Source: Pseudomonadota bacterium
GTDB lineage: Bacteria; Pseudomonadota; Gammaproteobacteria; Xanthomonadales; Xanthomonadaceae
NCBI GenBank assembly: GCA_021821195.1
Contig: JAKACT010000004.1
Span: forward strand, 124,001-188,000
Reading direction: 5' to 3'
DNA: 64,000 nt
The notes below the pieces were generated by a model. It saw only the letters and a list, made by a program, of their open reading frames with translations. It searched no databases and had not been told where the DNA came from. This document shows positions 18,205 to 21,296 of this stretch, in pieces; within the stretch, counting starts at the first letter, position 1; each line of letters begins with the position of its first letter. The translations under genes were made by a program, and so were the position numbers.

Positions 18205-19335
18205 ATGGCTGGCGTCCTTGCACTGGCATGCGAGCTGATCGCGCGTCCTTCGGTGACCCCGGATGACGCCGGCTGCCAGCGCCTGGTCGCCGATCGCCTG
18301 CAGGCGGCCGGTTTCAACTGCGAGCACCTGCGCTTTGGCGAGGTGGACAACCTCTGGGCCACCCACGGCAGCGGCGGCCCGGTGCTGGTGCTGCTGGGTC
18401 ATACCGACGTGGTGCCCGCCGGCCCGGTGGCGGCGTGGGCCTCGGATCCCTTCATGCCGGAGCTGCGTGACGGCGCGCTGTACGGGCGCGGCGCCGCCGA
18501 CATGAAGGGCAGCGTCGCCGCATTCGTCATCGCGCTGGAGCGCTTCGTCGCCGCGCACCCGGGCCACCCCGGCACGGTGGCGCTGCTGCTGACCTCGGAC
18601 GAGGAGGGCGATGCCATCGATGGCGTGCGCAAGGTCGCGGAGGTGTTCCGCGAACGCGGCCAGCGCATCGACTGGTGCATCACCGGTGAGCCATCGTCGA
18701 AGGAAACGCTCGGCGACCTGCTGCGGGTCGGCCGGCGCGGCACGCTGTCGGCGACGCTGACTGTGCGTGGCGTGCAGGGCCACGTGGCCTATCCGGAGAA
18801 GGCGCGCAATCCGATCCATCAGGCGATGCCGGCGCTGGCGGTGCTGGCGGCCCGGCGCTGGGACGATGGCTTCGACAGCTTCCCGCCCACCAGCCTGCAG
18901 ATCAGCAACGTCCACGCCGGCACCGGCGCCAACAACGTCATCCCGGGCGAACTGCAGGCGCTGTTCAACCTGCGCTACAACCCGCACTGGCGCGCGCCGC
19001 AGCTGGAAGCCGAGTGCGAGGCAGTGCTGGCCGCGCACGGGCTGGACTACAGCGTCCACTGGCATCGCGGCGGCGAGCCGTTCCACACCCCGGAAGGCCC
19101 GCTGCGCGCGGCGGCGCGCGAGGTGCTTGCGCAGTTCGCAGGCCACATGCCCGAGGAAAGCACCGGCGGCGGCACCTCCGATGCCCGCTTCATCGCCCCG
19201 CTCGGCGCGCAGTGCATCGAGATCGGTCCGGTCAACGCCAGCATCCACAAGGTCGACGAGCACGTGCGCGTGGCCGATCTGGAGCGGCTGCCCGACCTCT
19301 ACCTGGCATTGATGGAGCGGGTGCTGGCGGATTGA
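18205..19335 (+). CDS. dapE: Succinyl-diaminopimelate desuccinylase
   Basis: A dinuclear zinc hydrolase that removes succinate from N-succinyl-LL-diaminopimelate. The 376-residue protein shows [11 protein letters not shown] (first zinc His and catalytic Asp), [10 protein letters not shown] (bridging Asp), [14 protein letters not shown] (Glu-Glu), and the C-terminal [12 protein letters not shown] and [12 protein letters not shown] motifs. It completes the lysine pathway begun by dapD in this cluster. Confidence 0.97.
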
Positions 19336-19344
19336 GAAGGGCGC

Positions 19345-19374
19345 TTGCGCGCGCCCGATCCGGCGTGCCATAGT
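19345..19374 (+). promoter_or_regulatory. Putative promoter of the asnB leader transcript
   Basis: TTGCGC (19345-19350) and CATAGT (19369-19374) are 18 bases apart. Six bases after the -10 hexamer lies the ATG of the Asn-rich leader peptide at 19381, so the predicted +1 coincides with the start codon. This is the same -10 to ATG spacing seen at lptE, map, nnrS and hemN. Confidence 0.5.
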
Positions 19375-19380
19375 CGGGCC

Positions 19381-19467
19381 ATGCGCCGCTTCGCCACCAA
19401 CGCCAACAACCTCAACCGCAATAATCGCGGCACGAACCATCGTGCGCGGCTGCGGGCCCGCGCATAG
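19381..19467 (+). CDS. Asparagine-rich leader peptide of asnB
   Basis: A 28-codon open frame starting ATG and ending TAG. Seven of the thirteen residues from 7 to 19 are asparagine (positions 7, 9, 10, 12, 14, 15 and 19), in the order NANNLNRNNRGTN. The rest is mainly Arg and Ala. There is no Shine-Dalgarno sequence and the likely promoter ends six bases upstream, so it is probably translated from a leaderless mRNA. The peptide has no other apparent role: it lies ahead of a terminator hairpin and asnB, so it reads as the sensor of charged tRNA-Asn in a classical attenuator. Recognition is from sequence only; I know of no described homologue. Confidence 0.75.
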   Translation: MRRFATNANNLNRNNRGTNHRARLRARA

Positions 19468-19525
19468 GCGAAGCGACAGCAAGCCGGAACCACCCAAAGC
19501 CCGCATCGAAGGATGCGGGCTTTTT
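19443..19525 (+). terminator. Attenuator: terminator and competing antiterminator
   Basis: The terminator is AAAGCCCGCATC (19496-19507), GAAG loop, its perfect complement (19512-19523), and a run of five T at 19521-19525. TGCGGGC at 19451-19457, near the end of the leader peptide, is complementary to GCCCGCA in the terminator 5' arm (19499-19505) and can form an antiterminator. TGCGCGG (19443-19449) and CCGCGCA (19458-19464) can form a hairpin holding that segment in its loop. A ribosome stalled at the Asn codons (19399-19437) would leave 19451-19457 free. A ribosome at the stop codon would cover it and allow termination. Confidence 0.75.
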
Positions 19526-19565
19526 CGTTGTGCGGTTTTCACCCATCCACCAAGGAATCCCCACC

Positions 19566-21296
19566 ATGTGCGCCATCTTCGGCATCTTCGGGCTGCAGCC
19601 CGGCGACGACCTCCAGGCCCTGCGGCGGCAGTCGCTGGAACGCTCGCAGCGGCAGCGCCATCGCGGCCCGGACTGGAGCGGGGTGTACATCGACAACGGC
19701 GGCGGTGGCAGCGGCGCGATCCTCGTGCACGAGCGGCTGGCCATCGTCGATCCGGCCGGCGGTTCACAGCCGCTGTTGTCGGCCGACGGGGCGCTGGCGC
19801 TGGCGGTGAACGGCGAGATCTACAACCACGTGGCGCTGAAGCGGGAGCTGTCGCAGCCGTATGCCTTCCAGACCGAGTCGGACTGCGAGGTCATCAACGC
19901 GCTCTACCGCGAGGGTGACGCCGATGGGAGCGGGCCGGCGTCGTTCCTCAACCGCCTCAACGGCATCTTCGCGTTCGCGCTGTGGGACAGCGCGAAGGGG
20001 CGCGCGATCATCGCCCGCGATCCCATCGGGGTGGTGCCGCTGTACTGGGGCCACGATGCCGAAGGCCGACTGCGCGTGGCCTCGGAGATGAAGTCGCTGG
20101 TGGACGATTGCGCCGACGTGGCGCAGTTCCCGCCCGGGTACTGGTATGACACCGCGAGCGGGCAACTGACGAAATACTACGAGCGCCCGTGGCGCGACTA
20201 CGACGCGGTGGAAGGCGTCGAGGTGCCGCTGGCCGAGCTTCGAGAAGCGTTCGAGGCTGCCGTGCACCGCCAGTTGATGACCGACGTGCCCTATGGCGTG
20301 CTGCTGTCGGGTGGGCTGGATTCCTCGCTGGTGGCGGCGGTGGCGGCGCGCTACGCCCGCCACCGGATCGAGGACGGCGACAGGTCCGAGGCGTGGTGGC
20401 CGCGCCTGCACAGCTTCGCCATCGGCCTGGAGGGCTCGCCCGACCTGGCCGCGGCGAAGGTGGCGGCGGACATGCTGGGCACGGTCCACCACGGTTTCGA
20501 ATACACCTTCGAGGAAGGCCTGGACGCGCTGCCGGAGGTGATCCGTCATATCGAAACCTACGACGTCACCACCATCCGCGCGTCCACGCCGATGTTCCTG
20601 CTGGCGCGGCGGATCAAGGCGATGGGGGTGAAGATGGTGCTGTCCGGCGAGGGCAGCGACGAGGTGTTCGGCGGCTACCTGTATTTCCACAAGGCGCCCA
20701 ACGCGCGCGAGTTCCACGAGGAACTGGTGCGCAAGCTCGATGCGCTCAGCAACTACGACTGCCTGCGCGCCAACAAGTCGATGATGGCTTGGGGCGTGGA
20801 GCCGCGGGTGCCGTTCCTGGATCGCGAGTTCCTGGACGTGGCGATGCGGATGGACGCGGCGCACAAGATGGTGCGCAAGGGCGATCCCGGCCCGCAGCGG
20901 ATGGAAAAGGGCGTGCTGCGCGCGGCGTTCGAGGGCTATCTGCCGCCGGAAATCCTGTGGCGGCAGAAGGAGCAGTTCAGCGATGGCGTGGGCTACGGCT
21001 GGATCGACGGACTGAAGGCGCACGCGGAGGCCGAGGTGTCGGACCGCGTGTTGGCCGCGGCCGACAAGCGTTTCCCGGTCAACCCGCCGCAGACCAAGGA
21101 AGCGTACTGGTACCGGCACATCTTCGAGCAGTTCTATCCCAGCCGCGCGGCGGCGGAGACGGTGCCGGGCGGCAAGTCGATCGCCTGTTCGTCGGCGGCG
21201 GCGATCGCGTGGGACGCCAGCTTCGCCGGCATGGCCGATCCCTCCGGCCGCGCGGTGGCGGGGGTGCACAACGACGCCATCGCGGCGGCGGGCTGA
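19566..21296 (+). CDS. asnB: Asparagine synthase (glutamine-hydrolysing), class B
   Basis: Makes asparagine from aspartate, glutamine and ATP. The 576-residue protein begins MCAIFGIFG, so Cys2 becomes the N-terminal glutaminase nucleophile after Met removal; the start at 19566 is therefore fixed, with AAGGAA eight bases upstream. HRGPDWSG and NGEIYNH belong to the Ntn glutaminase domain. LLSGGLDSSLVAA is the PP-loop ATP site and SGEGSDEVFGGY the second synthetase motif. The transcript must pass the Asn-leader attenuator. It ends tail-to-tail, one base from the next gene. Confidence 0.97.
   Translation: MCAIFGIFGLQPGDDLQALRRQSLERSQRQRHRGPDWSGVYIDNGGGGSGAILVHERLAIVDPAGGSQPLLSADGALALAVNGEIYNHVALKRELSQPYAFQTESDCEVINALYREGDADGSGPASFLNRLNGIFAFALWDSAKGRAIIARDPIGVVPLYWGHDAEGRLRVASEMKSLVDDCADVAQFPPGYWYDTASGQLTKYYERPWRDYDAVEGVEVPLAELREAFEAAVHRQLMTDVPYGVLLSGGLDSSLVAAVAARYARHRIEDGDRSEAWWPRLHSFAIGLEGSPDLAAAKVAADMLGTVHHGFEYTFEEGLDALPEVIRHIETYDVTTIRASTPMFLLARRIKAMGVKMVLSGEGSDEVFGGYLYFHKAPNAREFHEELVRKLDALSNYDCLRANKSMMAWGVEPRVPFLDREFLDVAMRMDAAHKMVRKGDPGPQRMEKGVLRAAFEGYLPPEILWRQKEQFSDGVGYGWIDGLKAHAEAEVSDRVLAAADKRFPVNPPQTKEAYWYRHIFEQFYPSRAAAETVPGGKSIACSSAAAIAWDASFAGMADPSGRAVAGVHNDAIAAAG

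Follow-up and report, generated by a model that had tools for sequence, protein, structure and literature searches.

We infer, at a probability of roughly 0.9, that the asparagine synthase gene asnB in the window (the whole 64-kb stretch of DNA that was analysed) is under the control of a ribosome-mediated transcription attenuator that is specific for asparagine and has its leader peptide translated from a leaderless transcript. Ahead of asnB, a short Asn-rich frame is followed by an intrinsic terminator (Table 1). An attenuator of this specificity had been predicted from the DNA sequence, and this reading is supported by the conservation of frame and terminator among relatives and by the covariation of two RNA arms, B and C; the predicted coordinates of leader frame, Asn codons, terminator and antiterminator match were correct to the base.

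The mechanism would work as follows; of its steps, we infer where transcription starts, that initiation is leaderless, that the ribosome stalls and that readthrough changes. Transcription would start at the leader ATG, and a ribosome would initiate on the 5'-terminal AUG. With ample Asn-tRNA, the ribosome would reach the stop codon and cover arm B, the terminator C:D would form, and RNA polymerase would halt about 145 nt into the transcript. With scarce Asn-tRNA, the ribosome would stall on the Asn codons; arm B, just beyond the stalled ribosome, would stay free and pair with C before D is made, and asnB would be transcribed.

Anatomy of the asnB leader region

Table 1. Features of the asnB leader region; positions are those of the window
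Feature	Position	Strand	Remark
-35-like element TTGCGC (conserved part TTGC)	19345..19350	+	Over 95 distinct loci, the consensus has TTGC some 36 nt ahead of the leader ATG; not matched by the E. coli consensus scan
-10-like element CATAGT	19369..19374	+	18-nt spacer; 6 nt from its end to the ATG
Leader peptide frame, 28 codons and TAG, predicted leaderless	19381..19467	+	Transcription predicted to start at 19381 or an adjacent base
Regulatory Asn codons (residues 7, 9, 10, 12, 14, 15, 19)	19399..19437	+	Asn run also in relatives
Segment A (CCGCA within the Asn run)	19416..19420	+	Potential partner of 19451-19455; paired with it in the ribosome-free minimum-energy fold
Possible pause hairpin, its loop at the last Asn codon	19425..19449	+	Fold prediction; pausing role putative
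Antiterminator arm B (TGCGGGC), within the last leader codons	19451..19457	+	Complementarity and covariation
Intrinsic terminator: arm C 19496-19507, loop GAAG, arm D 19512-19523, T run 19521-19525	19496..19525	+	
Antiterminator partner of B within arm C	19499..19505	+	Pairs with B
Shine-Dalgarno-like AAGGAA of asnB	19552..19557	+	
asnB, asparagine synthase B	19566..21296	+	NF006949, 849 bits (cut-off 499)

The leader frame, MRRFATNANNLNRNNRGTNHRARLRARA, opens with ATG at 19381 and closes with TAG at 19465-19467. It has the 28 codons and the seven Asn among residues 7-19 that had been predicted; 7/28 codons of a short frame specify the very amino acid that the product of the downstream gene makes. 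The six frames of the 64 kb hold no second 13-codon stretch with at least six Asn, and among the 180 ATG frames of 15-60 aa in the window, the leader is the sole one with at least three Asn per 13 residues. A genome pattern search for the codon pattern NNxNxNN returned one occurrence in the 2.9-Mb genome, at the leader; the backward control of this search also gives one match, the reversed word fitting nearly the same sequence. Counted genome-wide and at any position, the pattern occurs in 8 of 18 other genomes of the same genus, seven of these eight having the NRNN form of the window leader.

Asparagine accounts for 16.5% of the residues in 143 distinct leaders versus 1.85% of asnB codons. 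The leader Asn codons comprise 503 AAC and 443 AAT, an AAT share of 47% compared with 12% in the asnB genes of the window and its 80 closest relatives; the AAT-rich Asn codons of the leader may slow or tune decoding. Leader length ranges from about 20 to 47 aa in the listed frames, the N-terminal part being variable in both length and sequence; the residues ahead of the Asn run differ between loci, and the Asn run and arms B and C are kept. Two C-termini are frequent, ...NNRARPMRVCD and ...NNASLPRAGD, which have differing RNA arms and equal logic. In our reading, the C-terminal residues are kept because their codons hold antiterminator arm B, and the apparent selection on the leader is on codons, not on a peptide.

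Terminator and competing RNA folds

The terminator, AAAGCCCGCATC-GAAG-GATGCGGGCTTT, is the perfect 12-bp hairpin with GAAG loop and five T residues that had been described from the sequence. This stretch folds with -23.3 kcal/mol (z -5.2; 0/200 shuffles equally good), and one terminator-like site is found in 18500-20500 versus 0.6 in shuffles. As in known attenuators, the intrinsic terminator lies between leader and gene, and the antiterminator both excludes it and covaries with it.

Arm B (TGCGGGC) is the exact complement of GCCCGCA within arm C, as predicted. Taken alone, the window's 7-bp B:C pairing is marginally above chance (p 0.04 versus base shuffles), and the stretch 19440-19508 has a z of 0.19. 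The pairing reaches p <0.05 versus base shuffles singly in 94 of 136 distinct loci and lies above it in 42. Among 101 distinct loci, the own B:C pairing beats that of B dealt randomly, with none of 5000 permutations equally good, in a test which is inflated by kinship among the loci. C reads CCTGC in seven loci, six of which have B as GCAGG, compared with 2/129 where C is CCCGC. In six of these seven loci, arm D keeps GCGGG and pairs with C through G-U wobble. Were B and C not paired, such a compensatory change in B would be difficult to account for. In 85/136 distinct loci, the first base of B comes 11 nt after the last Asn codon counted, which is approximately where the footprint of a ribosome stalled on that codon would place its downstream edge. 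In two loci (L161 and L131), B, C and D are all changed jointly (GCAGG / CCTGC / GCAGG), constituting a three-way covariation.

Folding predicts the two RNA states that the mechanism would need. With a ribosome placed on the last Asn codon, the modelled B:C probability exceeds 0.5 in 128 of 136 loci, and with a ribosome at the stop codon, the terminator probability exceeds 0.8 in 136/136; arm B had been picked by its pairing with C before modelling, which favours the attenuator reading. Hence, in the fold model, B is free when the ribosome sits on the Asn codons and hidden when it sits at the stop. The modelled stalled state does not come out in the other eight loci, among them L013 and L021, both of which have the window's type of leader C-terminus. 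In ribosome-free RNA before D is made, the mean probability is 0.58 for B:C versus 0.25 for A:B (136 loci), and in the full ribosome-free RNA, the terminator is preferred in 116/136 and the antiterminator in 19/136; by this model, ribosome-free RNA does not clearly default to termination.

Upstream of the antiterminator, the CGCAA at segment A is invariant in 12/12 aligned sequences, and the pairing of A with 19451-19455 is weak. The original prediction placed the antiterminator segment in the loop of a further hairpin (19443-19449 with 19458-19464). Its arms, TGCGCGG and CCGCGCA, are indeed complementary; this hairpin, however, is absent from the minimum-energy fold, and it was rejected as a general element because just 4 of the 12 aligned sequences (window, L002, L021, L061) contain the right arm CCGCGC. 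In its place, the fold predicts a hairpin at 19425-19449 together with the weak 19416-19420/19451-19455 pairing. The pause-hairpin stretch 19422-19466 of the window folds no better than shuffles (z -0.28); in relatives, z is -2.48 (L049), 0.07 (L003), -2.03 (L073) and -0.67 (L053).

Promoter and leaderless start

For the 95 distinct loci that have just one in-frame ATG, the upstream consensus is TTGC some 36 nt from this ATG and TANNNT at a distance of 13 or 12 nt. TANNNT is exact in 74/95, the window's CATAGT being among the other 21. With +1 set on the leader ATG, the -35/-10 geometry scores 6 or 7 of 7 in 139/144 distinct loci versus 0.6% of slid positions; this scoring used the best in-frame ATG of each locus, which favours the leaderless reading. 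A Shine-Dalgarno match of at least five bases precedes the leader in 0/95 and asnB in 77/95 loci, and a match of 3 or 4 bases precedes the leader in 80/95. The promoter and Shine-Dalgarno count left out L139, L107, L160 and L012; L125 has no ATG, 110 loci have one in-frame ATG and 51 have several. A sigma-70 promoter scan of 18500-20500 gave none (0.1 in shuffles), using the E. coli consensus, by which the window elements are weak.

The leader peptide is, thus, predicted from sequence to be leaderless, with the transcription start on its ATG. That it would be read without a ribosome binding site had been proposed before, and the -35/-10 elements fixed on the ATG together with the lack of a five-base Shine-Dalgarno argue for this prediction. 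A leaderless attenuator was also called unusual, which it is, but a precedent exists in the trpL leader of Sinorhizobium meliloti.

Conservation and distribution

The anatomy is conserved beyond the window. In the best 80 of 505 confirmed asnB relatives, a set biased to near kin, an Asn-rich short frame (at least five Asn codons, ending 85-179 nt before asnB) is present in 80/80, as is, 20-35 nt past the leader stop, a G+C-rich terminator and its T run (81/81 rows including the window copy). ATG, GTG and TTG were allowed as start codons in this frame search; L012 is partly masked, and L027 has four Asn from its ATG. Conservation among relatives, on which the original prediction had staked itself, is thus found for both the Asn codons and the terminator, with free exchange of AAC and AAT and covarying antiterminator and terminator arms. 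Nine of 145 distinct loci miss the terminator rule, all nine having a strong hairpin with a poorer T tail. The numbers of distinct loci differ between analyses (95, 145, 136, 101, 143, 144), since duplicates were removed on different stretches.

In the wider family, an asnB match at E 0.001 or better is present in 137/149 genomes, four of the matches being too weak to be asnB. Sixty upstream regions of further family genomes were chosen by genus, and an Asn-rich leader is found in 45/60, a count including two loci restored by eye (L139, L160) and three (L115, L161, L164) which fall below the 4-in-13 rule and were counted for their matching C-termini. In L160, about 340 nt separate the end of the Asn-rich frame from asnB and contain G+C-rich inverted repeats, perhaps an insertion. 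The 15 loci lacking the leader are L121 and all 14/14 loci with a divergent asnB (61-64% identity).

Among other families of the order, 12 of 13 loci of f12 have the leader by the strict rule and one more weakly, as do 3/3 loci of f2. No Asn-rich leader was found in 14/15 loci of f7, 5/5 of f9, the single loci of f5, f10 and f4, and one more distant member of the class; L206 is cut by a contig end, and in L093 no start was found. A wider distribution was rejected on account of these leader-free loci in f7, f9, f5, f10 and f4 and by those with divergent asnB. The remaining f7 locus, L193, has an isolated Asn-rich leader with a strong terminator, its promoter sitting some 20 nt farther upstream from the ATG; this leader may be of independent origin or a non-leaderless form. 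A class-level search gave an asnB match in 4/185 genomes at E 1e-150, three of them in the window's family.

Comparison with known systems

Ribosome-mediated leader-peptide attenuators are known for the trp, his, leu, ilv, thr and phe operons of Proteobacteria. These share with the asnB leader a short frame rich in codons of the amino acid concerned, an intrinsic terminator and an antiterminator just after the regulatory codons, but the asnB leader is asparagine-specific and predicted to be leaderless. The proteobacterial attenuator survey by Vitreschak and co-workers is said to cover branched-chain amino acids, His, Thr, Trp and Phe. In Xanthomonas, leaderless mRNAs have reportedly come to light through the mapping of start sites. 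No known Rfam family reaches its gathering threshold in the window; the leader models score below it on the + strand (Thr_leader 21.6 of 55, Leu_leader 16.6 of 50, Trp_leader 17.7 of 41 bits). T-box elements likewise sense tRNA charging by antitermination, but bind tRNA directly and need no translation; the window has no Rfam T-box match at the gathering threshold, and none is among the seven matches up to E 10 for 19330-19580. According to the available part of PMC2494555, asnS is T-box-controlled in a few Firmicutes.

The closest likeness in transcript layout is rnTrpL of S. meliloti, which, in the portion of the source available, begins with the ATG of trpL (PMC7298713), as is predicted for the asnB leader. 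It differs in being specific for tryptophan, in its 14-aa leader and in belonging to the Alphaproteobacteria; no homology is claimed. Mycobacterial polycysteine frames, which are also leaderless, short and rich in one amino acid, though in cysteine, are described as an amino-acid-responsive attenuator in work cited in the accessible part of PMC13236596. For mycobacterial cys leaders, a comparison found no conserved terminator hairpins, and asparagine is absent from the same Actinobacteria paper, as far as its available text goes (PMC1262725). Asparagine is also absent from the available main text of an attenuator survey (PMC2965389), and in the accessible part of a Xanthomonas paper, asnB2 is merely listed among the measured genes (PMC3771888). 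In the titles and abstract openings listed, with subscription journals thinly covered, no asparagine-specific leader-peptide attenuator is described. The kind of attenuator is already known; its asparagine specificity is that for which no description was found.

Alternative explanations

An attenuator translated from an ordinary 5' UTR, with a promoter other than the one seen, would fit the empty E. coli consensus scan, and L193 demonstrates an arrangement with a promoter further upstream. However, the -35/-10 elements are fixed on the ATG in nearly all loci scored, and five-base Shine-Dalgarno matches are lacking throughout, although shorter ones of 3 or 4 bases are frequent; we consider this reading unlikely. 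Lower still is the probability that the locus mainly yields a small RNA or small peptide that acts in trans, with the terminator as its 3' end. Such a role would be comparable to that of rnTrpL and peTrpL of S. meliloti, and a transcript that opens with a start codon and is terminated at about 145 nt does have the rnTrpL layout, as given in the part of PMC7298713 available; yet it is the N-terminal residues and the length that vary and the Asn run and arms B and C that are kept. A trans-acting role could be added to attenuation rather than being an alternative to it.

That Asn-dependent stalling acts on the translation of asnB or on Rho instead of on the intrinsic terminator is highly improbable. 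The mycobacterial polycysteine leaderless frames, which go by the title of attenuators of operonic expression in what is available of the source, lend it some plausibility, but the asnB leader region has a strong intrinsic terminator that pairs with the leader, and some 26 nt separate the T run from the asnB Shine-Dalgarno, which is not part of the described pairing. The idea that the hairpin is merely the terminator of the upstream dapE, with the Asn-rich frame incidental, has next to no probability left and was rejected: the window and 46/80 relatives do have dapE upstream in the same orientation, but the idea is contradicted by synteny, since the 34/80 relatives with no dapE match in the upstream flank (up to 1500 nt) keep both frame and terminator, and it leaves the Asn enrichment and the B:C covariation unexplained. 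The leaderless, asparagine-specific attenuator is the reading that we retain.

Asparagine supply in the family

The enzymatic setting in the family would suit such a switch. Among 60 family genomes, asnS is above cut-off in 58, the exceptions being G030 and G049 (87 and 92% complete), and gatA is above its curated cut-off in 0/60, compared with 12/14 control genomes. Weaker matches to the gatA model in 44/60 family genomes are taken for other amidases. With AsnRS present and gatA absent by its cut-off, charged tRNA-Asn should depend on free asparagine, and therefore a sensor of tRNA-Asn charging placed before asnB makes sense.

All five genomes drawn from one genus, g3 (G002, G054, G082, G108, G132), gave no asnB match. 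In two of them, G002 and G054, asnS is present and no gatA is above cut-off; g3 genomes may need external asparagine.

Other amino-acid leaders and significance

The promoter-on-ATG design may not be confined to asnB. In all eight same-genus aspartokinase upstream regions read (L256, L255, L254, L253, L251, L249, L248, L257), one order of elements recurs roughly 200-240 nt ahead of the aspartokinase match: TTGACA, about 18 nt of spacer, a CAGAGT/CACAGT-like hexamer, 6-7 nt and an ATG. The frame of this ATG is Thr/Ile-rich by rule in seven of these eight loci; overall, a Thr/Ile-rich frame precedes aspartokinase in 7/13 loci and in 0/5 of other families. From their promoter geometry, the thr leaders look leaderless, too. 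No terminator with a T run was found after the seven Thr/Ile-rich frames. A His-rich leader before hisG was found by rule in 0/14 loci, and an ilv leader in 1/10, that one in another family.

The geometry shared by the asn and thr leaders raises the tentative idea, which we hold to be possible but with the odds against it, that leader-peptide attenuation in the order of Xanthomonas and its kin is generally built on leaderless transcripts and that amino acid supply is sensed there via initiation on a 5'-terminal AUG. If true, the switch would combine two signals, namely, charged tRNA and the cell's capacity for leaderless initiation. The predicted leaderless leaders form a conserved natural series, on which the timing of leaderless initiation versus transcription would be testable. 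With the attenuator proposed here, asparagine would join the amino acids predicted to be under ribosome-stalling leader-peptide control, providing a testable prediction for the control of asnB in a group that includes Xanthomonas, Stenotrophomonas and Pseudoxanthomonas.
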